Source: Paramacrobiotus metropolitanus
Lineage: Eukaryota > Tardigrada > Eutardigrada > Parachela > Macrobiotidae
Length of the DNA stretch: 64,000 nucleotides
Direction: 5' to 3'
NCBI RefSeq assembly: GCF_019649055.1
Contig: NW_026570223.1
Span: 3,720,001 to 3,784,000 of the forward strand
The notes below the pieces were generated by a model. That model saw only the letters and a program-made list of their open reading frames with translations. It did no database searches and was not told where the DNA came from. Shown one piece after another: positions 1 to 40,760 of this stretch (position 1 is its first letter; each line of letters opens with the position of its first letter). A program made the position numbers and the translations under genes.

Positions 1-308
1 GGTCGAGTTCCTTGCCAGCCCGGGTCCTGACTTCGTTGTCGTTGAATGACCGCTAAGTTGTCCTGTTCATGGGCCTGCAGCTGATCCACCAGAATCTCGT
101 TTCGGGCTATGTATCGGTACGCGCTCAGGTTTCCAGCGACAACATTAATGTAAAGTGCTGCTGCCTGAGCTCGCATCTGCGCTCCAGTACCGGTAACTCG
201 TTCGTTGGTAAAGGAAACGATGCATCCCGCGCATGGCAATCTGTTGTTGTCCCGTGTCGCGTTGTCCCTGCACTGTCGGCAGTCCTCCGTATAAGCTTCC
301 GTACGAGT
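1..308 (-). CDS. Copy A ORF5, first about 100 codons (runs off window)
   Basis: The frame starting just after the splice acceptor (first codon ACT at 308-306) is open to the window edge. It encodes TRTEAYTEDCRQC, then a conserved PCA, then ALYINVVAGNLSAY. The same sequence pattern occurs in copies B and C, with conserved Cys residues spaced C-x2-C-x(14-22)-C, like a small zinc-binding module. Coding is supported because only this frame is conserved between copies; a different overlapping frame with its own ATG at 348 is not. The initiating exon is unknown and the remainder lies outside the window. Confidence 0.65.
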
Positions 309-331
309 CTGTCAAAATAAAAGTAAGCGAA
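309..331 (-). promoter_or_regulatory. Splice acceptor before ORF5, copy A
   Basis: The minus strand reads CTTAC, a T-rich tract, then TTTTGACAG, with the AG at 310-309. The ORF5 frame has a TGA just upstream inside this signal, so ORF5 can only be reached by splicing here. The aligned sequence in copy C keeps the tract but has GATGG instead of GACAG. Copy B has a separate acceptor ending CCGCAG at 36750-36749. Confidence 0.65.
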
Positions 332-524
332 CCGTTTCTCGGTTGCATCCTATAAGTTACACCCTACGATTACTACGGTCGGGCCAGGTCGGTTCTCGCA
401 CTGGTCCAAGACGCCTTTGTGGTCGTCTAATGAGGTAGGTCGACTTCTGTTGGTCGATGACACCTGTGTGGTGTCAATGGAAGGAGGTCGGTTATGCCTC
501 TCTCCCAGCGCGTTCTGCGTTTCC
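332..524. other. Short non-coding spacer between ORF4 and ORF5, copy A
   Basis: No gene is seen. The stretch aligns with copy C 55975-56150, including a shared block ending in CCTGGCCCGACCGTAGTAA, so it is a conserved part of the element. Confidence 0.6.
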
Positions 525-3500
525 TCATTCCCGTGTGGGTACTTCTGGCGACCCGAGCCGACTTGCTTGGTGCGAGTCAGCCAACTCGGTCGATTGTGCC
601 GGGGTCGGTCGTTCCTTCGGTAAGTGTCCGTATCGATGGGTTGATGGGTTTAAGGCGATAAATCGTTGACCGCCTTGGGTTTTATCGGTATTCGTGGCAA
701 ATTGTTGTTGGTGGAGTGCCTTCGATATGACGAATTCTAGTTCGTCATCCAGGGAGTACTTCTTCCGTCCGGCAACTGCGTCTGGTTTGGTCTTGTATTT
801 AGGGTCGACCAACTGCGGTTCCGCTGATGTCCACTGGAATTCAAACCGCGCTATGAGTTGATGGAGTATTTCTCCGCGGGTAAGTCCGTCAGGGTGCCAG
901 GACATTTCCATGCACGCCTGTATGGCGTGTATCCATCCTTCGTATGTTGAAGGGGCCGGATCTTTCTTAGCCGGTGGGAACTCATAGTACATCCGCTTTC
1001 CGCTGGTGTATGTACGTATCAGCTTCCCAGCATGGTATCCTAGGTCGCAGTAGTGCCTCACGTTGTTCTGGCTAAGTTGTCGCCAATCGCCCGTCTCATC
1101 TACCTTCCAGTGTTGGAGGAGTTTGAAGGCGATCCTTGGTGTGGCGAACTTTGGTCCACATGTAGCCAGGGCCTTCAGAGCGGCGAATGTATACATCCAT
1201 CCCGCGTCGTATTCTGAGACGCTCGGCTTGGGTTTCGAAGCCGATTTGATGTCGGTGTACTTCAGCCTAACGTTGACCAATGGAGGAATGTCGTCTGGTA
1301 GGACTTCTATCATGTCCTCATGAAAGTCCGAACGAAGTGGCTCAGAGTCGGGCGTCAGTGGTGCTCGTTTACCGTACTGACGGGGGACGTATACTCCGCC
1401 ATCATCTTCGTTGCTCTTGGAATCGTCGGCCTTGTCGCCGCTATCCTTCTCTTCGAGTTGTTTATCTGGTATCTCCGGTTCAGCCTGCTGTTGAGGTGCC
1501 GAGCTCGACGGTGGTGGAGGTTTACCATTTCCGTCGTCGTCGTCATCGTCCCTGGGCGAGCCATTTCCAGGTGTCTGGAAATCCTCGTCGTCGTCATCCT
1601 CATCTTCGGTTTCTTCCTCGGATGACGAGATCAGCTCGGATGACTTCGGCTCCTTTTTCTTAGCCGGCTTGGTCGACTTTGTCTTAGTCGACTTGGACTT
1701 TCCCTTCTGTTGGGTCGAGTCTTCCGGTTCCGGCGAAATCTCCATCGGCGAGGGTGGTGGAAGTGACTGTACGTCCTTCGGTATGAACCGCCCCTTCGCA
1801 CTCCGAGTTGGTTTGGCCGTGCTTGCTCGTCCAGCCGGAGCCGCTGCTGTACCAACATATGTTGTCGGTTCGTGCGGTGCTCGAGGTCGGGTTAGGGCTT
1901 GAACTCGTCTTTGTGACGATTGTGCAGCCGTACGAGCTATATGCAGCAGAGTGGCTGCATCGTCCGACGGTTGTTCATTGGAGTCGCTGTACTCCTCGGT
2001 GGGTTCCGTGCCGACCGGAGGCTTGTCCTTGTTGACGTAAGACATCCGGAGGTTAAATTCACGCCGATGTTGTTCCGGTATGAAGTTCGGCACGGTATAC
2101 CGAACAGGGACGTCGCGTTCCGCGTTTGTCGTCTGAAGGGTATGTGCGGCGACCAATTCTTCTATTCGGCCCTCGATATGGCTGATGATGTCGTCAATGT
2201 TGCCCTTCTTGTCCATGTACATCACGTTATATACACGGGCAATTTGGACCAAGTTCGATCCGCGGGGATTCCGAATATATCCAATACACCGTGCGATTCT
2301 AGTCGGTGTGTCGTCCGCGTTTCTTGCAGCTGCACTTTTAAGTGACTTGATGAGGTCCGGTTGGATAAGTTCAGCCATCCGTCCCCATTGTCGGTGAACG
2401 GCGACTGCTAACCCGTAATCCAAAGTCCAGGCGACGATCTGCATCATAAGTTGATGCGTCAGCCATTTTCCGGTTTCGCCTCCTGCTTGGATGTTGGTGG
2501 ACAAGTCTCGAACCAAAGACTGATAAATGTCCACGCCATTTTCCTTGGCGTTTCGGATGCTCCGGACGACTTCCACGTGGACGCGTACGGTGCGGATTAC
2601 CGTTTCAACCGGGTCGTCCGGCTGCTCGTCCGGCAGGCGTTCCCGTATGTCGTCGGGGGCTGGCCACTGTGATTCGTCAGTGTCCGCTCCATGGTTGAAC
2701 ATTTCTTTCAAGTCGCCTTTAAATCCCTCATAAGGATCGCCGTCTCCATGGTCGGAGATCGAGTCCTTGTCTTCAATGTCCGAGATCTGGTCGGATTCCA
2801 CGTCCGACTGCTGCTTCGATGTAGAAGGGTGCGGTTGTTCAGCTGAAGTCGGCGGTTTTGGTGGATTTCGTAACCGGCCTCCTGAAGTCTTAGCCGGCTT
2901 TGTGCCTGCTCGTTCCATGACTTCTTTGAACTTCCGTTCTACCGCCTCCTTGTCGTGCGGTTCCTGTGCCTTCTCCTTCTGCTCGGTCCTTTGTGGGCCG
3001 GCATCCGAAATGTCCAAGTCGTCGGATGACTTGTGGCGTTTAGCCGGGTTAGGCTTAGGCGTCTTGACCGTTGAATCCGACTTCGGTTTGGTCGGTTCTT
3101 TAGCCTCCGACTTTACAGGTTTCTTCTGTGTTTCCTTCGGTTGCGGCTTGGCAGACTGTTTTGCTGCTTCCTTCTTGGCCTTCCGTTTATCCTTGTGGGA
3201 CTTCGCGGAGTTGGCCGAGTTGATGACCTTAGTGTCCTGGTCATCGTCAATCTGGACTGAAGGTTGTCTAGTCGGAAGGGGAACTTTCATCTTAACGACG
3301 GATTGTTGTACCGTCTTTTTGGTCGACTTGGGTTCCGGAGCGGTGACTTTCTGTGGAGTCGTTGTAGCCGCTTGTAGGGCTTTAGGTCGGCTCCTTTCCG
3401 CTCGGTAATGTTCTCCCATACGTTTCATAACGTCGGCCATCTTTTCGGTAAGTCGGTCGTGGTCACGCCGAGCTTCCGTGGTGTTTCCAACTATACTGGC

Positions 3501-4814
3501 ACGTCGGATTCTCAACGAGTGCCAGAGTTCCCTATCTTCTGGGTATGCCATGTCGATGCAGACGTCCTGTTCCGACCTCGTTAAGTCCTTTACATGTTGT
3601 AGGGCTAGGTCGTCATGAAATTCCCGCGACGAGTCCTGAGGTGGTTTCTCCTTAGCCGTACTCCGTTTGGTCGGTATGTTACCCGACTCAGCCGTCGACT
3701 CGTTCGTTCGGGACTCGTCTATTGTTAGACGTAGGCCGGAGTGAACGGAGGTCGGTTCGTCCCTTTGTGGTGACGTTTCGACCGTGGTTCCGACTCGCGC
3801 TTCCGAGGGGGATGTTGTGTCCATCTCTTCCTCGGTTTTCTTCGGTTTCGTGGGGGTATTCCGAGGTGAGAACCTAGGTGGTTTCTCGATCGTCGGTTGG
3901 CTTGGCAACTTAGTCGGCTGGGATGCTGATCGGGTCGGTGAAATCTGCTTGACCGGCGATCTACCGCGTTTCGGTGTAGATCCCTTCGCTGGTCCCGCTG
4001 CCTTTTGTTTGGTGGAGTCGTCGGAGTCGTTGTTGTCCGTGTTCTCCTCTTCTTCACTAGTATCCGACATTGTTATCGGAATCTTCTCGGTCACCTCTTC
4101 TCCGGGCCGAGGTTGGATTTCCAGTGTATAAGCACCCGGGTTGATGCTCGGATTGCGGAGACGTTGAATCGTCTGGATCATGTTGGTATCTAGCGGGAGT
4201 TGTCGTAACTCCTGCTTTCCGCATCGTAAAGTCACCAACCGTCTTAGGACTTTGTCTCTGTCCTGGATTGTGGCATGGATCTTCTGGGCCATCTGAGTCT
4301 GTTGCTCTTCTGTCATGGTCCGATCTCGGATACCTCCTTGAAGTTGTGCTTCGTAGAGTATCCGTTGAAGGTCCAGCGTCTTAGCTTGGCCGACTAACTT
4401 CTTATGAACGGTCGGTGTGAACAAAGCCTTTGCTCCCATCACTTTCCGTGACGGGCTCGGCTTCTCTTCGGCCGGTGGTAAGGAAGACGGAGTCGCCTTC
4501 AGGACTTCCAAGAGTTGTTCCTTGGTCCTGACTAGTGGTGGCGACTTCGACGGGAAGAGCCGCCTGCGTGGTCCATGCTCTTCAACGTTATCCGTCTGTT
4601 TTGGCTTCCGTGCGAACTTTGGTGAGTTCGATCCGCCTGGTTGGAGAATACGTTCTGGTGTTCGTTCACTCTGCGGTTCTCTTTGTGAGAGCCCAGGTAA
4701 CGTTGTAGGTCGTTCCAGGGGTTTAGGTCGGGTTACTTCTGTTGTTCCGACTTCCTCCGTGGTATCCGTCGGCTCATCGTCGCCTTCAAGTGGAGGGACT
4801 GGTACTTCGTCCAT
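525..4814 (-). CDS. Copy A ORF4: about 1429-aa protein with three conserved domains, function unknown
   Basis: The ATG at 4814 is chosen; the frame is also open to a GTG at 4835. Comparison with copy B shows three conserved blocks in disordered, highly charged sequence: an N-terminal helical block (residues about 150-240), a central block (about 740-930) containing IGYIRNPRGS and VPNFIPEQ, and a C-terminal block (about 1205-1400). The C-terminal block begins GWMYTFAALKAL and has FPP, GLTRGEI and PQLVD motifs. It reads as two consecutive small helical units of winged-helix size, hence possibly nucleic-acid binding; this is inference. Lys/Ser/Glu-rich linkers contain nuclear-localisation-like clusters. 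It is not related to env, dUTPase, RNase or protease as far as can be seen. It follows ORF3 with a 29-nt overlap, suggesting coupled translation. Confidence 0.82.
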   Translation of the reverse strand: MDEVPVPPLEGDDEPTDTTEEVGTTEVTRPKPLERPTTLPGLSQREPQSERTPERILQPGGSNSPKFARKPKQTDNVEEHGPRRRLFPSKSPPLVRTKEQLLEVLKATPSSLPPAEEKPSPSRKVMGAKALFTPTVHKKLVGQAKTLDLQRILYEAQLQGGIRDRTMTEEQQTQMAQKIHATIQDRDKVLRRLVTLRCGKQELRQLPLDTNMIQTIQRLRNPSINPGAYTLEIQPRPGEEVTEKIPITMSDTSEEEENTDNNDSDDSTKQKAAGPAKGSTPKRGRSPVKQISPTRSASQPTKLPSQPTIEKPPRFSPRNTPTKPKKTEEEMDTTSPSEARVGTTVETSPQRDEPTSVHSGLRLTIDESRTNESTAESGNIPTKRSTAKEKPPQDSSREFHDDLALQHVKDLTRSEQDVCIDMAYPEDRELWHSLRIRRASIVGNTTEARRDHDRLTEKMADVMKRMGEHYRAERSRPKALQAATTTPQKVTAPEPKSTKKTVQQSVVKMKVPLPTRQPSVQIDDDQDTKVINSANSAKSHKDKRKAKKEAAKQSAKPQPKETQKKPVKSEAKEPTKPKSDSTVKTPKPNPAKRHKSSDDLDISDAGPQRTEQKEKAQEPHDKEAVERKFKEVMERAGTKPAKTSGGRLRNPPKPPTSAEQPHPSTSKQQSDVESDQISDIEDKDSISDHGDGDPYEGFKGDLKEMFNHGADTDESQWPAPDDIRERLPDEQPDDPVETVIRTVRVHVEVVRSIRNAKENGVDIYQSLVRDLSTNIQAGGETGKWLTHQLMMQIVAWTLDYGLAVAVHRQWGRMAELIQPDLIKSLKSAAARNADDTPTRIARCIGYIRNPRGSNLVQIARVYNVMYMDKKGNIDDIISHIEGRIEELVAAHTLQTTNAERDVPVRYTVPNFIPEQHRREFNLRMSYVNKDKPPVGTEPTEEYSDSNEQPSDDAATLLHIARTAAQSSQRRVQALTRPRAPHEPTTYVGTAAAPAGRASTAKPTRSAKGRFIPKDVQSLPPPSPMEISPEPEDSTQQKGKSKSTKTKSTKPAKKKEPKSSELISSSEEETEDEDDDDEDFQTPGNGSPRDDDDDDGNGKPPPPSSSAPQQQAEPEIPDKQLEEKDSGDKADDSKSNEDDGGVYVPRQYGKRAPLTPDSEPLRSDFHEDMIEVLPDDIPPLVNVRLKYTDIKSASKPKPSVSEYDAGWMYTFAALKALATCGPKFATPRIAFKLLQHWKVDETGDWRQLSQNNVRHYCDLGYHAGKLIRTYTSGKRMYYEFPPAKKDPAPSTYEGWIHAIQACMEMSWHPDGLTRGEILHQLIARFEFQWTSAEPQLVDPKYKTKPDAVAGRKKYSLDDELEFVISKALHQQQFATNTDKTQGGQRFIALNPSTHRYGHLPKERPTPAQSTELADSHQASRLGSPEVPTRE

Positions 4815-7800
4815 CGGCTCGTCTTGGTGACTCACCGGTGGCTACCTGTGTCGGTTTGACAGGTTGTACCTTTGGCTTCTTGGCGGATGGTGGCCTCTTC
4901 GATTTCTTCTGTTCCTCCGCTTCTTTCCGTTTATAGAAGTCGTCTACGAAGGACTGAATCATGGCTACCAATGTTTGTAGCCGTTCCTGGTTCTTGGCCG
5001 ACCAAACTGTTGTTGGTCGGAGGATGAATCGGGCTTCCTTGGTGTTGTTCTCCAAGTGTCCGAGGTTGATGTCGATCTGACAATACTGTGGACTCCGCTG
5101 GTCGGTTTCGTCCATCATTTTTCTCAGTTCGATAATAACGGCGTCCGCTCGCAGTAACTGTGTGTTGACTGCTTTTATCCATTCGAGGTCGGGTTTGGCT
5201 GGTGGGGCTGGAGGTGGAAGTCGGACGGAATCGAAAGTCGGTTTCCGAGCCGTCTGGATCTTTGTGGTCCGAGACGACCGACCTTCAGCCATGGCGTTTG
5301 TTGCCACGCTGGTCGGTTCCGTTTCCTTGTCCCTTGCCTTCTCCTCCTCGTATTCGTACACTCTCGTTTCCAGCCACGAGATGGTTCGACCCAGGTGTTG
5401 CTGAGTTCTGGAGGTCTGTGGGGCGTCCGGATGACAAAGTCGTCGTATGAACCGAGCGTTATTTCCCCATGCCAGGATGTCTCGATCCAAATTATTAGCT
5501 TCTTGGCTATTATCGACGCAAAAGTTTCTGCGGGCCCTCATCTCTGTGATGAGTTCCGCTACTCGAGCCAACAGTTTAACTATGTGTGGCGCGACCGTAC
5601 TCGGCAACTCGTCCGTGTCCGGTATAGCTTCCATAATCCGAGCTTCTGTAGCCGGAGACATGGGCCGGTCGTCCATTTCCATTGGTCTTTGTTGAACCAA
5701 GCTCGTCGATGAGGTCGGATGACTTGAGGTCATCGGCTGTTGCAAACCGGATGCGCCTTGTTGCGTTTCCTTCCGGTATCTCTCAAGTCGTTCCTGACGT
5801 GTCTTATCCGTCATCCATTTACGTCGGAGCATGTCATATTCCGCCTCTATGTCTTGGACATGCATCTGGGAAATCTTAAGTTGATCTCCAATTGCTGTCC
5901 GTATGTTACGGATGGTCGGATCTGTTCCGTCCATACTGTCGACTTGTCGTTGTAAGTCGGCAGCAATCTTCTTAGCGCGAGCCAACCTCTGATCAAGTAC
6001 ATCCCGCTGTTCGGCCAGTGTGGGCTCGGGCGGTTGATGCGAAGTGGTCGGTTTCGGTTGGGTGGAGGTCGGCTGAACCCTTTGTGGGTTAGCCTCGAGG
6101 ATTTTCCCCAAGTCTTCGACCCGCCTTGAGCAGATGTTGTACTGCTGATCCAAGGCATCACGCATCTGTTTCTCCATAGCGTTATTAGGGTCGAGCTCCC
6201 GGAGTTGTTTTCCGAGCTTCTCCATAACTTCGACCGCCTCTCGGTACTGGTCTTCGACTTCACCGATGTTGACTTCTTTTTGTTCAACTGTTTCGGTGAA
6301 TGGGAGTTCAACGTCGAGTCCGACTGATGGGACTGGGGAAGGTGTTCTCTCCCGAGCTGGTACTGGTGCTCCCGCTTTGTTCGGGTTAGCCAAGTACTGC
6401 TTGACGTGGTCAATCACCGACTGAAGCGCCTCGATGAGCCGGTCGCGGTTCGGGCCTGGCGGTGGAATTTCCCATGAGGCTAGAGTATCGGCCCAATCCA
6501 ACTCGAGTCGTAGTGCTCGGTCGATACGATCGAGGTCGGTTTGCTCTTGATCTGTTAGGGTTCCACTGAGTCGGTGATAGTAGATATCAGCCAAGTCTTG
6601 TCCAGCTTGACAAATTATATCCATGTTGGCCGTTAAGTTTTCCATCGGTGTGGTGCCGACTAAAGTCATCACCGCTGTCGTAGTCGGTGCTGCTCGGCGA
6701 GGTGACGACGGCGACGGAATCCGTATAGTGTATGCGGGTTCCGCGTCTAGGATCTCTGTGATCCGTTCGACTACCGCTCGGAGTTGTCGTTCGTCAACCT
6801 CGGTCGGTTCGTCTTTCATAATTAAGTGATCCGCTCTTTTCAGGTAAGCCGTTAGGTCGTTCATCTTCTGCCTGGCTACCTTGAGCGTTTCGGCGTCGGT
6901 TGGTGTCTCGTTGACAAAGGATCTCTGGAGGTGATCCAGTAGATTCCATCCATCGCCGATTATGGAAGCCATCTTCTCCCTGCGGCTTTTCCGCATTGCC
7001 GAGTGCATCTCCGCCGCCGATGAGGTCGACGGTAATGCGTCCGAAGTCTCCGTATCGGAGTCGGGCAGTCGGCTTTGAGTTCGGCTGTAATCCCGTAGCC
7101 GGTTGATGCTGTCCATCACCAGGTGGAAATGCGCTCCCGGTTCGACTGCGCCTGGTTGTATCAGGTTTCTCAGCAGTTGTATGTGAGTGTCGAACTCGGA
7201 GGCTATCTTCTGCACATTCGGTTCGATTCCTCTCGCAGCGCGTCGCCGAATTCGTCTCAGTGCGCGTTCCGCCTCTTTTATGGCGCTTTTGGCGTAGAGG
7301 ATCGTCCTGTCAGGTGAGGTGTTCGACGTTGCGGCCTGTGTGGTCGTCGTCGATAGTGCAGGTAAAAGGCTTCGATGATCTTCGTTGATTTTGGCTAGTA
7401 GCGCAACTCCTGGCTCCAGTAGCCGTTGATGTGCCAACGTCTGTGGCGTCCCACTTTGGACTAGACTTTCGACTAACTCTATGTGAGTTGTGAAGTCGTC
7501 GATCTTCTGTGGGGCGAAGCGTTCGAGGCCCTGTTGCGAACGTTCACGCATCTTCCCCAGGATTTGCTTTGCCTCTCGTAGGGCTCTCCTGGCGTCGGTG
7601 ATGGTCTTCTCACCGTTCGTAGCTGGCGTTGCTAGTGCCCGCATCGTCTGTGGCGACCGTGGTGTTGCGGTCAGCTGAATCATCTGTTGTTCGACGTAAA
7701 TTACTTTATCGAGCTCTGCTTGGCGATCATATGCCTGCTTGTGTTGGTTGAGCAGGACTTGGAATTCGCGAGGATGGTCGGCTCCACTTGTTGGGAGGTT

Positions 7801-10755: not shown

Positions 10756-10931
10756 TGTCGCTTGCTGTCAAGGAAAGGAAATACGGCGCGTTAGAATTCT
10801 ACCAACTCCCGTACATTCAACTGAAGATGTTCCGGTCAACTGAAGAGATTCCATTTCGACACCAAAGGTCCATCTATACCTAGCTACTGTTAAGCTACCT
10901 AAAACTTATTCTAAGTTTTACGCCTATGGCC
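10756..10931 (-). promoter_or_regulatory. Splice acceptor region between pol and ORF3, copy A
   Basis: On the minus strand a branch-point consensus CTAAC (10794-10790) is followed by a pyrimidine tract and TTTCCTTTCCTTGACAG, with the AG at 10766-10765, nine nt before the ORF3 ATG at 10755. This is a textbook 3' splice site. Copy B has CTAAC plus CAACAG and CCCCACAG at the same place. It implies a spliced subgenomic RNA for ORF3/ORF4, as retroviruses make for env. No donor was assigned. Confidence 0.7.
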
Positions 10932-16900: not shown

Positions 16901-18521
16901 TCGGGATAGACTTTAGTACTGTCTTGGCCGGTCGTAGTGTGCCGGTGTTTTTCCGTCCTTCGTACGCTTCGATGGCGTTGTGCAGTTTAAGTTCCTCGAT
17001 CAGAGTCCGGTTGTTATTCCGGCAGTCACGGCAAATTCGCGAAGGGTCCGACGGGTGATCAATCCGACTTATCCTTGCTTCACTTGGTAACTCGCCCGAT
17101 GCCTCTGGTATCGGGATAGACTGCACTACCGTCGTTCCTACCGGTTGTTCCGTTGTAGGGATCGGTGTTAAAACGAAGGTGAATTTTGAATGCAGGTAGT
17201 CGCATCCGAGCAGTACTGGGATGTCCGCTTCAGTCGGCTGGACGTGGAATGTATGGTGGCTAGTAAAGCCCTGCATCGTCACAGGTGCAGTACAGCAATG
17301 AGACACCATAAAGGCGACTTGTCCGCCTACACCAAGTATTTTAGTGTAATGTCCGAGGGGTTCCATTGTTAGACCGTTCCTCTCGCAAAACCGTTGTTCG
17401 ATGAGCGAAGTCTCCGCTCCGGTATCCAACATCGCCATTGTGGGCGTAGATCCGACTTGGATTTCGTGTGTCCAAGCTCGAACTGTCTTCGGTTTCTTAT
17501 GAGTTCCTTTCTCAAATGTCACTTCCCGCACCGTTGGTTTGATGGGGATTAATGACACCGGTCCGTGGTCGGCTAGCTGTTGAGTTGAACTTTGTGTAAG
17601 TTCGACTCCGACTTCTCCCGCTTCCTGTACCTCGGGTCGGTTAGCTACTCCGTCCTCCGGTAATTTGGCGGTTCCGAACCGTTGTGCCTGAGCCAATATC
17701 CTTTCCTCAATTGAATTCTTTGTTGGTCTCAATTTCGACCACATATAGTCGATGTTGAGGAATGTTCGAGAGCTGGCTATCGTTCTGGCTAGTCGCTCTT
17801 TTGGCTGGAAGAGGTCCGCTTCTCCCGGCCGAGAGTAAACGGGTACCTGTGCTTCTAATGGGACGGTTTCCCATTCTTCGACTTCTCCTTCCGATTCTTC
17901 GGTGAGGTCGATGGCTGCCATTGTCGCAGCGTATCTATCCGTTGCGCGTGCGGATGATACATTGGGGAAGTTTCTGTTGCCCCTGTGCGTGAATCGGCGT
18001 CCCGGTCCTCCGCGTCTTGGGCATCGTCTGGCCTGCTCGGTTGAGTTTATCCTCACCGGCAATCCGGTCCAACTTCCGTGGCCGGGCCGTACTACGTCAC
18101 TTTGTGTGACGGACGGCGCAGTCGCATTGTTTGCGCTGCTTAGGTCGGGCATTTCTTGCGTTCCGACCTCCGACGTTCCAGCGCCAAGTTGATGCGCTGA
18201 GTCGGTTGCCTGGAGTACTTGTTGTATTCCGGGCCAAGCTTCGACGGTGCCATTGTTGACGTACACGCCGAGCCGGGCAGCTAACTTCCGAGCTGCCTCT
18301 ACCTCCTTTGTGGAGGTCGACATCGCTTTTGCGAAGTCGTCAGTTGAACTATTTTCGTTCAATCCGAGTAGTTGGAGGATGGCTTCTATCTGTTGAGTGC
18401 CCTCCTCGATCGTTATGGGGGAATCCAGTTCGTTCCGGTAAATAAGCGGTTGGTTAGTCGGGTTATCCTTGTCCGGTGGTTCGGTCGGATGTTGGAGGTC
18501 GAATGAGTCACCGGAGCTCAT
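10932..18521 (-). CDS. pol: Copy A pol: protease, reverse transcriptase, RNase H, integrase, 2529 aa
   Basis: The polyprotein that copies the element RNA and inserts the DNA. Domains by approximate residue: N-terminal unknown 1-340; aspartic protease with DTGAE at 366; Cys/His cluster CTIC...HH near 720-740; acidic linker; two consecutive beta-rich, dUTPase-like linker domains at 1027-1110 and 1157-1227; reverse transcriptase 1322-1520 with YIDD at 1476; RNase H 1624-1737 (ECDASG); integrase zinc domain (H..H..C..C) 1930-1970; integrase core with D in YADF, D in HSDRG and E in GQVER (about 1997, 2060, 2095); GPY/F-like segment; Lys/Pro-rich tail with an AT-hook-like KRGRSRKK and two repeats around PTKPKRKY. 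All catalytic residues looked for are present. The usual length is 1000-1300 aa, so the extra mass is in the N-terminus, linker and tail. Confidence 0.96.
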   Translation of the reverse strand: MSSGDSFDLQHPTEPPDKDNPTNQPLIYRNELDSPITIEEGTQQIEAILQLLGLNENSSTDDFAKAMSTSTKEVEAARKLAARLGVYVNNGTVEAWPGIQQVLQATDSAHQLGAGTSEVGTQEMPDLSSANNATAPSVTQSDVVRPGHGSWTGLPVRINSTEQARRCPRRGGPGRRFTHRGNRNFPNVSSARATDRYAATMAAIDLTEESEGEVEEWETVPLEAQVPVYSRPGEADLFQPKERLARTIASSRTFLNIDYMWSKLRPTKNSIEERILAQAQRFGTAKLPEDGVANRPEVQEAGEVGVELTQSSTQQLADHGPVSLIPIKPTVREVTFEKGTHKKPKTVRAWTHEIQVGSTPTMAMLDTGAETSLIEQRFCERNGLTMEPLGHYTKILGVGGQVAFMVSHCCTAPVTMQGFTSHHTFHVQPTEADIPVLLGCDYLHSKFTFVLTPIPTTEQPVGTTVVQSIPIPEASGELPSEARISRIDHPSDPSRICRDCRNNNRTLIEELKLHNAIEAYEGRKNTGTLRPAKTVLKSIPIPEASAEADAQNLEEVQQRYRTWFSGARHFLDQRTLEMVTTLRQNGAVTYEQIRDAQQTCEPVIALMNDIEDEAWEWEDERIPIHRQYMEYGLPVPRPLEMPCQELGFQLFAYMQRVQLHGESSTTAFWQRYGEDTAITRHVPDPLPPIEEHTPTTVHFASSPPKPQDDVILEETDKPYQCTICKDNIDGVVRAIKAHHDLTWSDDRPSSPSPPQQERKVDRFRKPQQTRIQWLSDVGSQPADLENQDGASRPTQPTEQVDQVEPTTQVEVGNTPQVGQEDGTTVENEDFQSDDSDIQSTSDSADTDSDNRPSEESEEEDDEEFDLSVRHCRTDKPSINDSDDSSSEDEEPTYDVRLTTALRTIVHTEFIVEQPEQTEQPKPTDSEQQEELDQLKALWEFGGGKPEEDDFRPPTIVVQQLSTEQPTLANLTDEQKSEHFNTWKARVAKVTTIEELDLDNKCPEAHHLKLDSYVETKALDRQVVFNSERVSLPPWSTCSIKVRTAKPMDPRRPIYFSTLQRVVRPIRPIEAKIDIRPTNDTAWINIQNTTQQTKVLKKGVRLGHMQYADVYEPEINNAFVEWELPHRVAKTWPHTREAKPKPQFEVFEATGVRAQRKVKLIPRAVTMVEVVLDVPVSKDQKLMYLGESDPKRDGVEFMDGVTKHDGKRFTIMVANHTHREVTLRKGAPMGRAEAFTMMTDDQKVEEARVNTAEVEREDAESQEERRRIIDSMNFGKNLTDEQLAKLKAVAWDYRTVFPTSKKPYGDVKGVTHTIDVQGAQPIKMNPTKTSWKGREFIQKHVQEMLDQGVIEPSSDAWSFPVVLAAKRNGDGTVGTRFCINYIKLNAVTKKNNYPLPNPDELLDRCAGMEYYGKVDCQSGFWQIPMDEQSKDYTTFVTPEGMWRFNRMPFGVCNGPATFQMHMDKITASARKKGVFAYIDDIIFFGKTFEDFLEAFRATLECLRDAGFTVKPSKCEIGTDRLLFLGHVLSKNGVQTDDEKVACIAEQSCPRTERQLRSFLGLANYYRKFIKGYAQETSKMYELLRKDKNIKLDWTEAHTAEFNDIKKALTEAPVLAKFDPTKKTVIECDASGAGLGAVISQDDHPIAYASRVLRGPELNYGVTEWECLAVVWAVQKFKHFIDHGPFTVRTDHRALQNLLRCESNRPGINPRLTRWALALQGRDITIEYKPGVFCDNADALSRWPLERSDDKDPHEELDQVPNFEDFKDEIKVCTIRTLRRLKANASRKRKKDLKEPPKIPLPPVLPGCNVITDWDDLSTTEVRVINIPAPETPEPTVRTVNTAEDEELEVEKTLPPPPEPNVELRKAQLRDPQLRKIIDQLEHPENLDHKSQHLEHYQMAQGVLYRLKTINTKLERCFVVPLFMRNQIIRSLHDGKTGNHFGREKTIEALKLRYYWPRMNSDAISYIEKCRQCIMTNKQRRPPPGKLQKMEVGEAWYRIYADFKGPLPRTETKGYQYIAVVTDQLTKFTIARATKTNTAREFERFFVKDVLLKYGMPTFIHSDRGTHFTAKTFAKVARIFGIQHTLGTAHHPEGQGQVERQMQTIWDGIRKFCDVKDGHRWHRALDYVVCGMNRAVHAATKFSPFYMLYGREMTMPQDIVAGTNTPETFTDKEQYIRRIKERLQRSHEIARINIDEAFERNAEHYNKKKSNPTFKPRDKVTVEFPTKDPARKERYDGVWTVINYVGPNNLLLRCEDGREDTVAVDRVKHCRVETSRPATRSTGPVADPTEGKATRKPKKKTEETVEKPSDPTKDADETKPKVKNKRGRSRKKPPTDFETPALTELQKQDVIAADPAPTSEEVDEHKAQSTTELPKKSDDKSETPVQLANQPTEEPKLATKPARKKRTVKKTDSSAPTTEVVVADSAVQPTKPKRKYTKRKVDLPSTSAPTTEVVAADQAVEPTKPKRKYGTAKKPKLTAQQMLEETEVAEDEAHKEILERITEGRADSEKPVKTAKPKTPKTAVTTEQTQS

Positions 18522-21500
18522 CGACCTTGGGCGTTTCCCGGGGAGTTACTCCGAGCCGGCCCATTGTTGGGTGGCGTCGAGTTCAACGACTGACGGGGCG
18601 GCAACGGTTCTCTGTATGCCGGGGAACCTTGTTGGTTCCCGCCGCTATTGTTGCGGTTTCCGCCATTCCCCTGGCCGGGCGACCGGTTTCCGTTACCGGG
18701 GCTACCCGAGCCTCCTGCCTGTTGGCGTTGGCGCGGCGGCGGCACGATGTCCTTCCAGAAAGGATTCACCGAGCCAACTGGGCCATTCGTCGAGTATCGG
18801 CGGTACCAATCGTCGTACCACCGAAGGTTCGGATTGTTGTCCGAGCCATAGATGCAGCGCGACTCGTCATGGTTGTTAAACATGCAGTGCCTGCACCGGA
18901 AGGTCTTGTCCTTCGTCCACTGGAAGAAGGCTGCCTCCATCTTGTCGACATACGTTGTCCCTTGCCGAGCACTTTGTTGTGCCTGGGGAGGTCGGTTTCC
19001 TTGTTGGTTGCCGCCTCCGCCGCGGTTAGGGAAATTTCCACGGCCGCGATTCCCGCCGCCGCGTCCTCTACCGCGACCATAACCTCCGCCGCCGTATCCT
19101 TGTGGAGGATACTGTCCGTAGGCGGAGTACCCCTGGTTGGAGTTCTGTCCGTAACCAAAACCTGTGTTGTTTTGGTTACCGCCCGAGCTATAACCTGGGC
19201 CTCCGTAGTTGTTAACGGGGGCTCCTGTTCCAGGCGCTGGGGGGTTCAGATTCGCTGCCGCCGCATTCGCCCAAGTCTGTTGCTGGACTGGTGCCTGTTG
19301 CACCGGTGGCGTCGGCGCCGGACTCAGTTGTCCGTACTGTGCTGTTGGAGTCTGATATCCCGGCATCATGTGTGGCTGATACACAGTCTGTTGTGGTATC
19401 GCCGGAGGTGGAGTCGGAACAGGTGCAGGTGTTGCTGCCCGAACTCTAGCGTAGTCGCTGTCACGCGATTTCCGCACCTCATACATTTCCTTGCCGTTAA
19501 CGAAGTCCCGCAGGTAGTCACGGAACTCGATCGGCGTCGCCGGCATCCTGATTTCCAGGGCCTCCCGCAGTTTGGGTTCATGGATGTTCTCCCGAAGATG
19601 ATATAGTATCATCTGGTCGGTGACGGTAGGGACTTGGGACTTCATGAACATCATCGCGTCGTAGTATTGTTCCGGCGTTTCTTCGCCGAAACGGAATATC
19701 CGCTTGTTTATTCGGGATATCATGTTCACTTCCTTGTTCTTGTCCGCAAATCGCTGTTCAAATTTGGTCAGCCATAAGTTGACTGGCCAGCCGCCAATTG
19801 GTTCTCCAGCGGCTTCGAGGGTATGCCAATGCTCCGCTTGGCCATCTAGTTGGGCCACCAAGTCGGCCATGAAGGTCTGATCGTCTTCGTACCATTGTTG
19901 GGCTTGACGATACAGGCTTCGAATCTGCTTAAGCCACCCATGAAGTTTGGTGTGGTCTCCGTCGAACGGCGGTAAAGGTTGTCGACGTCCGTGGGTCATT
20001 GCGCGGATCAAGGCAACGTGCGCTGGATCCTGTGCCAGAGGAATCGGATTTGCCGCCGGCGCAGCTTGTTGTGCAGCCGGGGCGGGTGGTGGGTTAGCAT
20101 TTGGCATGTGACCTTGTTGGTCTTCGTACGCCTCCTGTTGGTAGGCTTCATCGTAATGGCCGTTGTATCCGTCCTGTTGCGGATACCGAGCCTGGTCTGC
20201 GTGACGAGGCTGTTGTGGCTGTCCTCCGTACTGATTCTGCGGTGGAGGTGGCGCTCGATTTTGTCTCGGCGCCGACGGATAGAATCCACTTGGCTGATCG
20301 TAGACTCTTCCGTACCGGTCGGGCTGTGTCCCCTGAGCCGGCATCCGACTTTGTGTAGGTCGGTATGGAGGTCTCCGACCTTGCTGGTCGGAGCTATCTT
20401 CTCCATTTCTTCCGTCCTGCTGCTGGTCAGCCGTGTTGAATGACCGAGCTCGCCCGCGCTCGGAGTCGAACTGCGGGTTTTGACGGAGCAGGTTCGGATT
20501 GGAATTCGTCCGTGGTGGGCGATATGCCTCCATGCCAGGTCGTGGTGGCTGGATTGGGAGACGTTCAGCGTCCGTTGTCCGATCTCCTCTGGCATTGGGT
20601 ACCGGCGCGTACATTGTTGTGCGCGTCGCGTACGAGGTGCTAGTGTATGCACCGGCCGACATTGTTGTCGCCACGTTCGTCGTTGGCACTCGTGGTGCCG
20701 CGGTCGACGTGTTGTGTTCCGGTTCCGGAGCACTCGGTATTGTTGGAGGCTGTGGGATTGTTCCCACGCTCGGGTCGGTTGTTACGACTCCGACGAAGTA
20801 GGAGGTGTTGTTCTCCTTCTTCGCCATTTCTTGGGTCGGGTTGATTCCCCACAGGATGTCACTGATTGTTCGTGACGGCTGTTGATCCTGTGCTATGGAC
20901 GTCCGGTATGAAGGAGGTTCAGCCCGACTTTGCTCCTGGTATGGAGGAAGCTCAACCTGGCTTTGTTCCAGGTGTGAGGAAAGTTCGACCTGGCTTTGTT
21001 CCAGGTGTTTCTTTTCCTCCCTCAGACACCGTGTTTCCGTGTCCATCTCGTCCATTTGCCGCATCATGTCTGTGAGGTTGCGGGCGGCCTGTTCGCCGAA
21101 TTCGTACAGCTCGGTTTCACGAGCCTCAAGGTAAAGGATGCGGCTGTGTTGCGCCTCGTTTACCTTCTGGGCCTCGTTCAGGTTGTGCTCCAGTTGTGCT
21201 CGGAGTTTCTGTTCCTCCTTGAGGACCTTGTTCAGTCCGTGGACCTGGTCGGCTAGCTGGGCGTTTGCTTCCACCAGGTCGACATCGGCTGTCCTTTGGT
21301 TAGGAAAGCCCATGTCCCGAGCATTCTCGTCAATGAACCGACGTCCCATTCTGACGAAAAGGAGTTCTATCTCCGACTCGAGTTCGTCGACTCGTTGTGT
21401 CAGTCGGTCGATCTCGTTATCGGCCTTCTTTAGCTCCACCACGTATCTATCGACTTCGTTTCGGTAGACCTCGGCTTCTTCGTTGGCCGTGTTGAGTTGC

Positions 21501-23173
21501 TGGTGGAACGCTCCGGCTGCTTGTTCCGACTCGATTAGTGCCGTTTGTACATCGGCCAAGTCCTTCTGTGCGTCCTCGAGCGCTTTGTTCGCTTCGGCGA
21601 GTTCTCGGTTCAACTCGTGGACTGCATCCATAGATCGGTCCAGCATGCCTTTGAGTGTAGTTACTTCATCGATGTCGTGTCGACACGGTTGGTCGGTACG
21701 CTTCAATATGGCATTCAGCCGGTCGATTTCCCGTTGTTGGATGGCGATGCCTTTGTTGGCGTCGGCCATTTCGCGTTCCCATTTGCTTCGTTCGAGCCGA
21801 TGGGTATCTTCCGAGTTTCGGAGCGATTTTCCCGCAGAGTCAACGATTTTGTCTGCCAAAGCGATCTGGGTGACCAATCTACGGCATCTCGAGCGGAGTA
21901 GGTCGACGTCTACGATACTTTCGGGCGGTGTTGCCGCTACCCACTTCTTGGCCGTTTGTCCGAGTGCACTGGCTTGGTGAGTAAAGTCGTTCTTGTTGGA
22001 CTTCGGTGACGTCGCAAAGAATCCGTCCGCACTACTCGGCCTTGACGCGGTTGTTGCGTCGAAGACTTCATTTGTTGGTGACGGAGTGCTACCAAGTTCG
22101 CCTACTTCGAACATTGGTGGTGACGATCTAAGCGTCGGGTCGACAGGTCGACTTTGTGTCGCCTTCACCGTTTGTTGAGCTTCCGTTGCTCGAGTCGACT
22201 CGCGTCCGGTTGGCGAAGGTCGGCTCAACGGTGAGATAACCCGTTCATTGGGTGCTGGTATGCTGCTCGGCGATCCAGTTGAGCGAGGGCCGCTTCGTGG
22301 CGGTATCTCGGAATCTTCCGTTCCACTTGGTGGTTTAGTTGATTGGACGGCTGCATCCGACTTTGTGTCGGTTAGTTGCCGTTCCAGGCTAGTCGGTTGC
22401 TTGTTGCCGACTTCCTTCTGTGGATCCGCCGTGGTCGGTTCCGACTGACCGACCTTGACACTTGGTGAAATCCTTCCGACCTGTGTGGTCGGTTGGACAC
22501 TGCCGACTTCTGTTGTCGGCTTTTCCATTCCGGTCGAGGTCGGTTGTTCGACCTCCCGGGTTTGTGGTAGGTTGGCTTGCTGTTGGCCGACTTCCTTTGC
22601 CGAAGGTTGGTCGACCATTTGTTGGTCGGCCACCGTAGTCGGTTGTTGTTCACCAACTTGCTTAGTCGGAGATTTTCGCTCGGCCTGTATGGTCGGCGAT
22701 TTCCTTCCGACTTGGTTAGTTGGAACATCCGTGTTGGACGAGGTCGGCTTCGGCACTTCTTCCGTCCTGTTGGGTGAATGCCGTCCGAGCTCGGTTGTCT
22801 TTGTGACTACCGAGCCTTGAGCTCTGTGTGAGCTCGACTCCAGGTCGGTATGAGACAATGTGGTCTCAGCTTGCAGCTGTTCCACATCCCCCTTGGTCAG
22901 GTGGGACGGGGCTGTTGTGTCAGCTGGGGCTTCCAGGAATGTTTTATCCCGGGCGTCCTCGAAACTGTCATCCGAAGTTGGATTCGAGTCGGCAAGGAGG
23001 ATGCGTTCGTTGCGTCTCTCCTTTGCCTCGGCCGACTTAGTCGAGTCGGTAGAGGACGGCTGACTTTTGTCTTGACCGGCGTACCGAAGTGAGTACTTCC
23101 CGGTCATGTTCGCACGCCGAGAATAGTCCGTGTTGAACTTTCTCGCGTACTGATCTTCTCGGGGATTCGACAT
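18518..23173 (-). CDS. gag: Copy A gag: giant Gag polyprotein, 1551 aa
   Basis: Structural protein that would assemble the retrotransposon particle in the cytoplasm. Residues 1-400 are low complexity, with tandem variants of KSPTxQVG. About 430-720 is predicted coiled coil, followed by LEQSQVEL repeats. The capsid-like region is about 1063-1228 and is recognisably homologous to copy B. A Gly/Asn-rich stretch precedes a CCHC knuckle (C-x2-C-x4-H-x4-C, CRHC...H...C) near 1427-1440. PSAP motifs lie near 813 and 965 and PPSY near 753; these resemble viral late domains. Ordinary gypsy Gag is 300-500 aa, so this one is three to four times longer. The stop overlaps the pol start as ATGA at 18518-18521, with pol in the -1 frame, so pol needs frameshifting or reinitiation. 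The ATG at 23173 is the first in frame. Confidence 0.9.
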   Translation of the reverse strand: MSNPREDQYARKFNTDYSRRANMTGKYSLRYAGQDKSQPSSTDSTKSAEAKERRNERILLADSNPTSDDSFEDARDKTFLEAPADTTAPSHLTKGDVEQLQAETTLSHTDLESSSHRAQGSVVTKTTELGRHSPNRTEEVPKPTSSNTDVPTNQVGRKSPTIQAERKSPTKQVGEQQPTTVADQQMVDQPSAKEVGQQQANLPQTREVEQPTSTGMEKPTTEVGSVQPTTQVGRISPSVKVGQSEPTTADPQKEVGNKQPTSLERQLTDTKSDAAVQSTKPPSGTEDSEIPPRSGPRSTGSPSSIPAPNERVISPLSRPSPTGRESTRATEAQQTVKATQSRPVDPTLRSSPPMFEVGELGSTPSPTNEVFDATTASRPSSADGFFATSPKSNKNDFTHQASALGQTAKKWVAATPPESIVDVDLLRSRCRRLVTQIALADKIVDSAGKSLRNSEDTHRLERSKWEREMADANKGIAIQQREIDRLNAILKRTDQPCRHDIDEVTTLKGMLDRSMDAVHELNRELAEANKALEDAQKDLADVQTALIESEQAAGAFHQQLNTANEEAEVYRNEVDRYVVELKKADNEIDRLTQRVDELESEIELLFVRMGRRFIDENARDMGFPNQRTADVDLVEANAQLADQVHGLNKVLKEEQKLRAQLEHNLNEAQKVNEAQHSRILYLEARETELYEFGEQAARNLTDMMRQMDEMDTETRCLREEKKHLEQSQVELSSHLEQSQVELPPYQEQSRAEPPSYRTSIAQDQQPSRTISDILWGINPTQEMAKKENNTSYFVGVVTTDPSVGTIPQPPTIPSAPEPEHNTSTAAPRVPTTNVATTMSAGAYTSTSYATRTTMYAPVPNARGDRTTDAERLPIQPPRPGMEAYRPPRTNSNPNLLRQNPQFDSERGRARSFNTADQQQDGRNGEDSSDQQGRRPPYRPTQSRMPAQGTQPDRYGRVYDQPSGFYPSAPRQNRAPPPPQNQYGGQPQQPRHADQARYPQQDGYNGHYDEAYQQEAYEDQQGHMPNANPPPAPAAQQAAPAANPIPLAQDPAHVALIRAMTHGRRQPLPPFDGDHTKLHGWLKQIRSLYRQAQQWYEDDQTFMADLVAQLDGQAEHWHTLEAAGEPIGGWPVNLWLTKFEQRFADKNKEVNMISRINKRIFRFGEETPEQYYDAMMFMKSQVPTVTDQMILYHLRENIHEPKLREALEIRMPATPIEFRDYLRDFVNGKEMYEVRKSRDSDYARVRAATPAPVPTPPPAIPQQTVYQPHMMPGYQTPTAQYGQLSPAPTPPVQQAPVQQQTWANAAAANLNPPAPGTGAPVNNYGGPGYSSGGNQNNTGFGYGQNSNQGYSAYGQYPPQGYGGGGYGRGRGRGGGNRGRGNFPNRGGGGNQQGNRPPQAQQSARQGTTYVDKMEAAFFQWTKDKTFRCRHCMFNNHDESRCIYGSDNNPNLRWYDDWYRRYSTNGPVGSVNPFWKDIVPPPRQRQQAGGSGSPGNGNRSPGQGNGGNRNNSGGNQQGSPAYREPLPPRQSLNSTPPNNGPARSNSPGNAQGR

Positions 23174-23321
23174 TGTTGTCGAGTCAGGTCGGCTCTGGTG
23201 GAGCCTTAAAGGTTTAATCAGTTAGAAAGAGAAAGTCGAACAATCTTCTATGTGAAGATGTTCGGCAAAATCAGAAATGTCTTTTTGTTCAGGAACTTCC
23301 AAGGGTCAGGATCGTCCGGTG

Positions 23322-23346
23322 AAATGTTGTTGTTGTTGTTGTTGTG
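23322..23346. repeat. GTT microsatellite in copy A leader
   Basis: About seven consecutive GTT units lie between the regulatory module and the gag start. Confidence 0.8.
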
Positions 23347-23454
23347 TCTGTTGGTGACTCAGTACACAGGGTATTAGTATACAGTACAATGGTACAGTAC
23401 AGTACGTAATAGTAGTACGGTGTAGTACGTCCTATGTTACTGTGCTGACCAGTG

Positions 23455-23623
23455 TGACGTAACAGGTTAAGTGGTCTTGCACTTCTGCCTACGTCACAGA
23501 ATGCGAGCCGCGTGCAAAATTTGCAAAAAACGATGAATCACGCCTATGTTAGGCTATGGGAACTTTCCCCTGCACTCTGATTGGCTGCCTCTTAAGTACT
23601 GATAAGCGGTCGTTATGACGTCA
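23455..23623 (-). promoter_or_regulatory. Candidate regulatory module of copy A (CRE, kappaB-like, CCAAT, CRE)
   Basis: The module holds TGACGTAA (23455), TACGTCA (23490), the palindrome GGGAACTTTCCC (23558-23569, kappaB-like), TGATTGGCT (23578, an inverted CCAAT box) and TGACGTCA (23616-23623, a consensus CRE). The same motifs in the same order and nearly the same spacing occur upstream of gag in copy B (50627-50795), although the surrounding sequence has diverged. It lies about 280 nt before the gag start. It may be an internal promoter or enhancer. Factor binding is inferred from motif identity only. Confidence 0.55.
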
Positions 23624-24171
23624 CAAGGAAGTTCGAGAATTTTCGCGCTATTTTCTGTTAGAAAAACAAATTATTTTTGCTCGGCTAGAAGGTCGATCTA
23701 GCTCGGATTTTTAAGTTTTTAACCGTTAGAAATTATTTTTATTAATTAAGAGAATTTTCTGGTGGTCAAAACACCGTTAGAAATCGAAAATAAGAGAATT
23801 TCCGACCTGTTGTCGGTTAGTCTTTGTCTAACTGTCTAGACAGGTTCGTTGACCTAGCAGGTCGGTTCTCGACCAAAAGCAAAATTCCGAGTCGGTTTCT
23901 CCGTCAGAAATTACTTTTTCACCGTTGGAAATTTTAATTTTACGGATAGAAATTGTTTTCTACCGCTAGAAAGTGAAAAGCCGACCTAGTTTCGGCTAAA
24001 ATCGACCTAGAACCGTTACTTTACCAGTGTCGGTGTCGGTGTCGGTTCCGCTCGATTTCCTCCGTCCGAGGTCGGAAATCCGTCGTTTCCGAGTTGAAAA
24101 TCGCCGTTAAAGTTGCGGGTCGCTGTTCAAAGCGAAGGTCCCCGTATTATTGGATTAATCCGTTCGCGCTG

Positions 24172-24380
24172 CAGACTCTCGTTCGAGTCTGATCCGTCGG
24201 TTGGGAGAAGAGAAATTCCGTACGTCCGGGAAATAAGATTCCGCTCTTCAATGTGGAAGAGACCAAGGAACTGTGCTCACCAGCTGGGCAAGAATCACTT
24301 CGGTGATCCTCGTTTTCCTCAGCTGTAAGACGATGCGATCAGTCTGATCGACAGTCAATGCAGAGATTGCTTCAGCAATC
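24172..24380 (-). other. Hairpin-rich 5' leader next to the primer site
   Basis: Five perfect short inverted repeats lie in about 210 nt: 24172-24191 (7-bp stem, 6-nt loop), 24244-24261 (6-bp stem), 24294-24307 (5-bp stem, 4-nt loop), 24337-24349 (6-bp stem with one central base, so nearly self-complementary) and 24365-24380 (6-bp stem, 4-nt loop). Retroviral leaders in this place carry dimerisation and packaging signals. That role is inferred here. Only the inverted repeats are directly seen. Confidence 0.6.
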
Positions 24381-24472
24381 GATCTGACAGTGACTGAAAA
24401 GGTTTCCAAACAGGTTCTCCGTGAATGAAGCCTTCACCGTCTCCTCAAAGGGTCCGTTGAAAGAAAACCAAA

Positions 24473-24487
24473 CGATTCTGCTTACCA
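24473..24487 (-). other. Primer binding site of copy A
   Basis: On the minus strand the 15 nt immediately after the LTR read TGGTAAGCAGAATCG. The TGG start, complementary to a tRNA CCA end, and the exact abutment to the LTR fit a minus-strand primer site. It aligns with TGGTAGCAGTATCG in copy B, with one extra A. The priming tRNA is uncertain; copy B resembles initiator tRNA-Met over the first nine bases. Confidence 0.7.
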
Positions 24488-24921
24488 TGTAACAGGCAAG
24501 CGCGAGGAGATCACGAGTGAGCTTTATTGTACAAATAAAGGGGAACAATGCTGCGTAATAGCAGGAAAGCAAGAACAAAGCACTGATGGCTAAGCAAGTG
24601 ATTGCTAGAAAAGTGGGTTCTTGAGCGTCTGTCAAGGCGTGAAAGAAGCAACTGGCGGCAAGCACGTGGTGTGTGCCATCAGCTGTGTGTTGATGCGCAG
24701 ACTGGACTCAATCCAACGCGAGCGTACGCTGAGTCATACAGCGAGAGAGGGACGAGAGAGCAAGTATGCTCAGTGTGTGCGCCGCGTATATCCGCTTCAG
24801 CGGATATAAGTGCAGTGCAGCAGCACACGTACGTACAGCGAGAGAGGCGATATGGCAAGCATGAGTGCAAGTACGACCGTGGTGGGCCGTATGCACCAGG
24901 CGCAGTCATGTGCCTCTGACA
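24488..24921 (-). repeat. 5' LTR of copy A
   Basis: Only one LTR of this copy is in the window, so the borders are inferred. On the plus strand it begins TGTAACAG directly after a primer-binding-site-like CTGCTTACCA and ends CTCTGACA, giving TG...CA ends. In the direction of transcription an AATAAA (plus TTTATT at 24523-24528) lies about 35 nt before the LTR end, a reasonable polyadenylation signal. An AATAAA also exists on the other strand at 24534-24539. The segment around 24786-24860 matches, inverted, 60156-60217 in copy C, as expected for LTRs of oppositely oriented copies. Confidence 0.75.
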
Positions 24922-33109: not shown

Positions 33110-33499
33110 TGTCAGATATGACACAGAAGCAGAGAGCAAAAAGGGAGAAATATCTCTCCTTTATTGTTTCACAATAAAGCAACCAACAAAAACAACCAAC
33201 AGAAAAACCAATGCGGAAAAGCTGTGGTGAAAGTGGCTGCCAGCGAGCTCGGTGAAAATCAACGTAATGCCGCGGCATGCAGCAGGTGAATCACAGCTGG
33301 TACCGCAAAGCATGGAATCGCTCGTAAGCGCTGGGCCACACCTCCAAAGTGCATAGCGACGCTGATTGGTCAGCGTAGACAAAGTATACGCTGACGTTAT
33401 CAGCGTATATGAGCGGCACGAATGGCGTGGCCATAAGCGTGCGGGCGACAGAGCAAGCCACAAGAGGTGTCTACCGCCTCGAGTGAGCGGTCTCTGACA
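33110..33499 (-). repeat. 3' LTR of copy B
   Basis: 390 bp, nearly identical to 51529-51912. It carries a hairpin CTTTATTGT-TTC-ACAATAAAG (33159-33179) that puts an AATAAA on both strands, and a CCAAT-type box in TGATTGGTC. Compared with the other LTR it has an extra 7 bp after CCAGCGAG. Confidence 0.95.
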
Positions 33500-34130: not shown

Positions 34131-34139
34131 CCCTTCCTA

Positions 34140-34570: not shown

Positions 34571-34584
34571 TGGCCCTGCATGCC

Positions 34585-34725
34585 GGTTTGGTCCTGCGTC
34601 TCGGGCCAAAAGATTTAAAGTTCGAGTGCACCCCAGTTGGGTCATGCATCTCGGGCCAAAAAAGTTAAAGTTCGAGTGCACCCCGGTTGGGTCATGCATC
34701 TCGGGCCAAAAATCTTCCAAGTCCA
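34585..34725. repeat. Tandem repeat of about 60 bp in copy B 3' region
   Basis: Two to three copies of a unit containing CATCTCGGGCCAAAA and GTTCGAGTGCACCCC. Confidence 0.8.
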
Positions 34726-40731: not shown

Positions 40732-40760
40732 TTGATAATGGCTGGTTGGGCCCGGTGGGG

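Follow-up and report, generated by a model that had tools for sequence, protein, structure and literature searches.

A 30.4-kb Ty3/gypsy retrotransposon with two accessory genes in the tardigrade Paramacrobiotus metropolitanus

The window analysed here is a 64,000-nucleotide stretch of the genome of the tardigrade Paramacrobiotus metropolitanus (assembly GCF_019649055.1, contig NW_026570223.1, here C3, C3:3720001-3784000; positions without a prefix are window positions). Its first 24,921 positions belong to a giant minus-strand retrotransposon bounded by long terminal repeats (LTRs), in which the order of features is leader, gag, pol, spacer, open reading frame 3 (ORF3), ORF4, ORF5, tail and 3' LTR (Table 1). 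The original prediction, made from the window, covered positions 1-24921 (~25 kb) and pointed to a missing left end. In the assembly (169.8 Mb, 533 contigs) the element continues for 5,498 bp beyond position 1 to contig position 3,714,503, in a fetched left flank designated L010; on the right, the 5' LTR forms its outermost part and ends at position 24921. The element comprises an internal region of 29,551 bp between its LTRs and a coding total of ~8,200 codons.

Table 1. Features of the giant element and of related elements in the window. A slash marks a putative splice boundary.
Feature	Position	Strand	Remarks
Giant element	C3:3714503-3744921	minus	30,419 bp, LTR-bounded with target duplication
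5' LTR	24488..24921	minus	434 bp, TGT...ACA, flanked by AACC
Primer-binding-site-like sequence	24468..24487	minus	starts TGG, abuts 5' LTR
Untranslated leader	23174..24487	minus	1.3 kb, many short perfect hairpins
gag	18518..23173	minus	1551 aa, open
pol	10932..18521	minus	2529 aa, open
pol-ORF3 spacer	10756..10931	minus	pyrimidine tract and ACAG putative acceptor
ORF3	4786..10755	minus	1989 aa, open; N-terminal half of ~3.4 k-codon accessory gene
ORF3 putative shared exon	10603..10755	minus	first 51 codons; donor-like CAG/GTAGA at end
ORF4	525..4835	minus	1436 aa, open; C-terminal half of ORF3/4 gene, separate frame in focal copy
Predicted winged helix 1	966..1226	minus	ORF4 residues ~1204-1290
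Predicted winged helix 2	648..962	minus	ORF4 residues ~1292-1396; closest to globular domains of linker histones H1/H5
ORF5 start	1..308, on to C3:3718125	minus	frame opens at putative acceptor TTTGACAG/ACTCG
3' LTR	C3:3714503-3714936	minus	outside window; 434 bp, flanked by AACC
Copy B	33110..51913	minus	divergent family; LTRs 33110-33500 and 51529-51913
Third relative	55834..60217	plus	end of ORF4, ORF5, tail, LTR

Bounds, core genes and phylogenetic position

The left end recovered from the assembly carries a 3' LTR that is 100% identical to the 5' LTR over 434 bp, and the 4-bp target duplication AACC is present on both outer flanks. The termini and the duplication are those of Ty3/gypsy elements, with TG...CA LTRs and a short target duplication. 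Four pattern matches to the primer-binding-site-like sequence were found in the search for a primer tRNA, none of which is called a tRNA by ARAGORN. At the polypurine position before the 3' LTR lies a short, weak purine stretch that is identical in all 16 three-prime-end loci compared. The tail upstream of this LTR measures 3.2 kb, and the longest element-strand frames listed there have ~120-160 codons.

As had been predicted, gag, pol, ORF3 and ORF4 are all open, and frames of this length are not expected by chance: the longest stop-to-stop frame has 2537 codons, compared with a maximum of 361 in 100 dinucleotide-type shuffles of positions 525-23173. The N-terminal half of Gag is coiled-coil-like. 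By eye, a capsid-like region lies near the C-terminus, where a CX2CX4HX4C sequence, picked in the same way, is taken by us to be a knuckle. Pfam places the Pol domains in Ty3/gypsy order (protease, reverse transcriptase, RNase H, H2C2 zinc finger and integrase), and the start codon of pol and the stop codon of gag share the sequence ATGA in all six copies compared, including the focal one. The element is almost certainly, as far as sequence can tell, an unusually large Ty3/gypsy LTR retrotransposon with two accessory genes under selection.

Among 5027 candidate database proteins, 1279 are related to the reverse transcriptase (RT)-integrase region at E<=0.001. The nearest database proteins to pol, ORF3 and ORF5 are all from P. 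metropolitanus. In a tree of the focal sequence and 108 of the 120 listed matches (12 were left out for length or for lack of a usable match), the focal RT-integrase groups with P0007, P0011 and P0012 of P. metropolitanus in a clade with a support of 100 and a long stem. No supported sister of this clade is found among the 109 rows, which include no named reference clades, and the long stem calls for caution about long-branch effects.

Accessory genes and their expression

The three extra ORFs of the original prediction resolve into two genes. At the join of ORF3 and ORF4, the focal copy differs from all seven other aligned copies by a short, frame-changing length difference. The longest frame spans the join in five of the seven (737-1271 codons within the fetched stretch), while the other two have no frame across it and show stops or frame breaks elsewhere. 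Furthermore, the protein of the P. metropolitanus NCBI model LOC129594469 (P0006, 2979 aa) contains ORF3 and ORF4 in a single chain, with 51, 41 and 35% identity over three stretches of ORF3 and 63% over ORF4. Because of this read-through and the fused database protein, ORF3 and ORF4 are, judged by sequence, one gene of roughly 3,400 codons that is broken in the focal copy. Consequently, the focal copy is not fully intact, contrary to the first description, and copies without the break exist.

The protein set was originally reported as unrecognised, and this holds: ORF3, ORF4 and ORF5 match no Pfam family above cut-off and no PDB sequence up to E 1, by which captured host domains in these frames were ruled out. 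Protein database searches with ORF3 and ORF5 scored the ~7990 candidates sharing the most words (ORF4 was not searched alone there) and gave a single match at E<=0.01 each, for ORF3 residues 600-1989 and for the ORF5 alignment, both in P. metropolitanus. Internal repeats in ORF3, suspected by eye, were discarded after self-BLAST at 1e-4 found none in P0003, P0006 or gag.

ORF5 is a real frame of ~0.73 k codons, of which only the first ~100 lie inside the window, and it opens at a putative splice acceptor and not at a start codon. This acceptor (Table 1) is kept in all nine aligned copies, including the focal one, whereas the ATG that comes first in frame in the focal copy is altered in others, so that no conserved start codon exists. 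The codons ahead of this ATG, which include two Cys-X2-Cys pairs, are conserved in the focal copy, the copy on C41 and the database protein P0127. The latter (LOC129596996, 780 aa, 88% identical) consists of the first 51 ORF3 residues followed by ORF5 from the acceptor, the nucleotide boundary of the join being deduced from the protein. At the corresponding position, after ORF3 codon 51, the donor-like CAG/GTAGA is kept in eight of eight copies, and a pyrimidine tract with an ACAG acceptor lies 9 nt upstream of the ORF3 ATG in eight of eight distinct copies (focal copy included in both counts). The three 100-nt bins covering the spacer (10701-11000) are 97.6-99.0% identical across seven copies and rank among the top four of 50 bins compared. 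This identity contrasts with a dS of 0.15-0.38 in the flanking genes and indicates strong constraint on partly non-coding sequence. A further donor-like site, ATG/GTAAG, read by eye, spans the border between the LTR and the primer-binding site (PBS) and is preserved in 11 of the 14 copies aligned, the focal one among them.

These sites, together with the one NCBI gene model, suggest that ORF5 is likely made from a spliced RNA to which the first 51 codons of ORF3 are joined. In the proposed scheme, full-length RNA would yield Gag and then Pol through stop-restart at ATGA, and the donor at the LTR/PBS border would supply the ORF3 acceptor. For ORF5, the first 51 codons of ORF3, start codon included, would be spliced to the ORF5 acceptor, with the rest of ORF3/4 as an intron of ~10 kb. 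The shared ORF3 exon would thereby give both accessory proteins a common N-terminus.

An unlikely alternative is that ORF5, and perhaps ORF3/4, is expressed from an RNA of its own, through a promoter inside the element, trans-splicing or initiation at a non-AUG codon, the NCBI join being a gene-model artefact. The pyrimidine tract and ACAG precede both accessory genes and would serve trans-splicing equally well, and the join is known from a gene model. However, it falls on the conserved donor-like site and the conserved acceptor, and it is in frame. A search with the SL1 spliced leader model gave no match, but the model was silent in every control genome too and is uninformative.

Copies, selection and alternative readings

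The assembly was probed with four internal regions and the LTR, and the best 40 places for each (44 for gag/pol) out of 101-420 first-look candidates were retained; the collinearity tally used 40 of the 44 gag/pol rows, four partial rows being left out, and all 40 of the other lists. Among the best 40 ORF3/ORF4 places, counting the focal one, 36 are accompanied by one or more of the other internal probes with the spacing and orientation expected for the element: the ORF4/ORF5 probe is found in 30, pol/ORF3 in 16 and gag/pol in 10. Four places (focal, C41, C138 and C69) combine the gag/pol and ORF4/ORF5 probes with both LTRs.

Median dN/dS of both accessory genes is 0.11-0.16. By the Nei-Gojobori method, pieces compared with the focal copy give 0.10-0.15 for gag (5 pieces), 0.06-0.24 for pol (12), 0.11-0.27 for ORF3 (14), 0.06-0.45 for ORF4 (16) and 0.08-0.55 for ORF5 (10); some pieces share a source copy and are hence not independent. 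The upper ends of these ranges are due to copies that carry stops or frame breaks or whose 3' half is divergent (L043, L049 and L060-L062). The tally leaves out one ORF4 comparison lacking a usable match (L042) and the related elements in the window, whose silent sites are saturated or nearly so; the ORF5 of the third relative, for instance, gives 0.20 at a dS of 1.48.

Within the window, copy B, a member of a divergent family with LTRs that are 96% alike, contains homologues of gag, the pol C-terminus, ORF3, ORF4 and ORF5 at 27-45% aa identity and in the focal order; most of pol was not found between 33110 and 51913. Since copy B has the same frame order, the five-frame plan is older than the focal family. 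The extra genes belong to the element because they are collinear in other copies, are present in the divergent family and are under purifying selection, and as far as these comparisons reach, ORF3 to ORF5 move and evolve with it.

Three copies have closely matching LTR pairs, each with a 4-bp duplication: the focal copy (0 of 434 positions differ), the C37 copy (0 of 433) and the C41 copy (1 of 433). The C37 copy (C37:452723-472717, L042) is 20 kb long and lacks most of ORF3, ORF4 and half of ORF5, ORF3 residue ~254 running into ORF5 residue 387. With identical LTRs and a target duplication, this deletion derivative appears to have transposed together with the deletion or at some point after it. 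The LTR pairs on C15, C138 and C2 differ by 0.024-0.050 (Kimura two-parameter distance, K2P), have no matching target duplication and may be recombinants or assembly misjoins. The 5' LTRs of C15 and C138 and the 3' LTR of C2 are identical to LTRs of other loci, and the 3' half of the C15 copy (L043) is only 51-69% like that of the focal copy.

Overall, the focal insertion is probably a recent, autonomous-type 30.4-kb Ty3/gypsy element of a tardigrade lineage, with proposed shared-exon splicing and a conjectural chromatin-type accessory protein. In insect gypsy elements and errantiviruses, a downstream env gene is reached by splicing, and the extra genes described here likewise lie downstream of pol and are apparently spliced. 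It is nevertheless very improbable that the element represents an errantivirus-type endogenous virus with an envelope protein as one extra gene, as no membrane-type protein was found. No 19-residue window reaches a hydropathy of 1.6 in six proteins (maxima 0.69-1.36; the small tail frames were outside this test); lacking a hydrophobic segment, these six were ruled out as envelope or other membrane proteins, and no Pfam envelope family matches up to E 1. The original claim that a large non-env coding region follows pol in a giant Ty3/gypsy element is upheld. Viral contigs contained no relative, although the ORF4 scan was weak and used only low-complexity acidic patterns.

An assembly artefact, that is, a chimera of repeat copies, is less probable again. 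The published P. metropolitanus assembly, which we take to be the one used here, is Canu-based with a long-read N50 of ~17 kb, shorter than the element (PMC11191345), and the three LTR pairs lacking matching duplications could be read in this way. On the other hand, the focal, C41 and C37 copies have near-identical LTR pairs with matching duplications, and the gene order is repeated on many contigs. Least credible of all is that ORF3 to ORF5 are host genes or a second element beside an ordinary gypsy element: ORF3 and ORF5 match only P. metropolitanus among the candidates scored, but a single identical LTR pair and a single target duplication enclose all frames, whose order recurs in other copies and in copy B; this reading is refuted unless the assembly is wrong both at the focal contig and at the other collinear copies.

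Element size, hairpins and known systems

The usual size limit of Ty3/gypsy elements is ~10 kb. Perfect inverted repeats with a stem of at least 6 number 84 in the window part of the element, compared with 26.0 after dinucleotide and 30.6 after local shuffling, and 56 in copy B compared with 24 in shuffles. The excess is two- to threefold in leader, genes and tail (1-24487 and L010 3937-9311) and in copy B, and the A-rich loops ACAAA, ACACA and AGAAA recur. For stems of at least 5, counts exceed the maximum of 100 synonymous-codon shuffles in four of the five genes, namely gag (47, maximum 36), ORF3 (58, 43), ORF4 (36, 31) and ORF5 (21, 18), but not in pol (58, 59).

The C-terminus of ORF4 is predicted, with modest confidence, to form two winged helices, one of them like linker histone H1. 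The ORF5 model (AF2 mean pLDDT 34.9) was discarded. In the proposed explanation, the giant accessory protein would be nuclear, and its two winged helices would bind chromatin or the element's own DNA and thereby tether or compact the pre-integration complex; this is the weakest step of the explanation, and a chromatin role of the ORF3/4 protein is a guess. A more far-reaching idea, which we regard as doubtful, is that the element has evolved an apparatus for a 30-kb genome, in which short hairpins dispersed along the whole RNA would serve packaging or compaction, and a giant protein with a linker-histone-like domain would condense or tether the long DNA copy and would be expressed, together with a second protein, by way of a shared exon. 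If true, this apparatus would account for the growth of a Ty3/gypsy element beyond the ~10-kb limit.

Several observations speak against a special role of the hairpins. Direct repeats are also in excess (113 vs. 53), mirror repeats slightly so (49 vs. 35), and the same excess of inverted repeats is seen in one stretch outside the elements (23 vs. 7.6) but not in three others. Copies show weak covariation: the leader has 2 compensatory pairs (reached by 372 of 500 shuffles) and 5 cells (52 of 500), with a covariation score reached by 1 of 500 shuffles and a percentage paired by 13 of 500, and no compensatory pair across copies was found for the tail hairpins.

Ogre elements have an extra ORF before gag; here, no frame of at least 150 aa lies wholly within the leader. 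The extra ORFs of Retand-type plant elements are much shorter. Transcription, reverse transcription and packaging are considered to set limits on the length of retrotransposons (PMC6431247). Ogre, from dicot plants, has LTRs of 1.9-6.5 kb and an internal region of 11-13 kb (PMC6431247); unlike Ogre, whose size comes largely from long LTRs, the element described here has LTRs of 434 bp. Retand and other plant elements likewise carry additional sequence or ORFs downstream of pol and ahead of the 3' LTR (PMC11963269, PMC7264820) and are set apart by their plant hosts, not by sequence comparison.

Among the closest known systems is Burro (GYPSM1/Burro-1 to -4) of planarians, described as multicopy elements with an internal region of up to 25 kb and more than 30 kb including LTRs, whose ORF1 encodes a polyprotein of 4,873 aa with Gag, an env-like region, Pol and apoptosis/ubiquitin-type domains (PMC6431247). 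Both are Ty3/gypsy-like with an internal region of more than 20 kb and large extra coding capacity. In contrast to Burro, gag and pol are separate here, the extra genes lie downstream of pol, the LTRs measure 434 bp and the internal region reaches 29.6 kb, a distinction drawn from the description of Burro and not from its sequence. In the five frames, Pfam gave no match up to E 1 to the Burro-type BIR, MATH, BCL2, ankyrin and dUTPase-like domains.

With 29.6 kb between its LTRs, this animal element exceeds the internal region cited for Burro, and its two accessory genes, both under selection, fall into no known family. The proposed splicing with its shared exon, the predicted winged-helix protein and the hairpins are parts that can be checked and that make it testable how a retroelement outgrows the length limit. 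No description of the focal element was found in the open-access literature, and the main text of a study of tardigrade transposable elements, which treats H. exemplaris and R. varieornatus, does not include Paramacrobiotus (PMC11071193). LOC129594469 and LOC129596996, filed as uncharacterized under record names that give no link to any element, derive from relatives of the element and can be assigned to a retroelement.

The third relative in the window has 35-64% aa identity to the focal element by piece, mostly 50-64%, and is adjoined by a tandem array of ~49-bp units at 60592-61180. Between the elements, an imperfect palindrome of ~137 bp lies at 30497-30633. The focal element itself is inserted antisense in an apparent intron of an ABC transporter gene (L010 1313-3047 and 25077-29149), with ABC_tran matches (Pfam) at 26364-26696 and 28814-29149. 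L010 2505-3047 and 25077-25570, where Pfam gives no match, are by eye presumably exons of the same MRP/ABCC-type gene.

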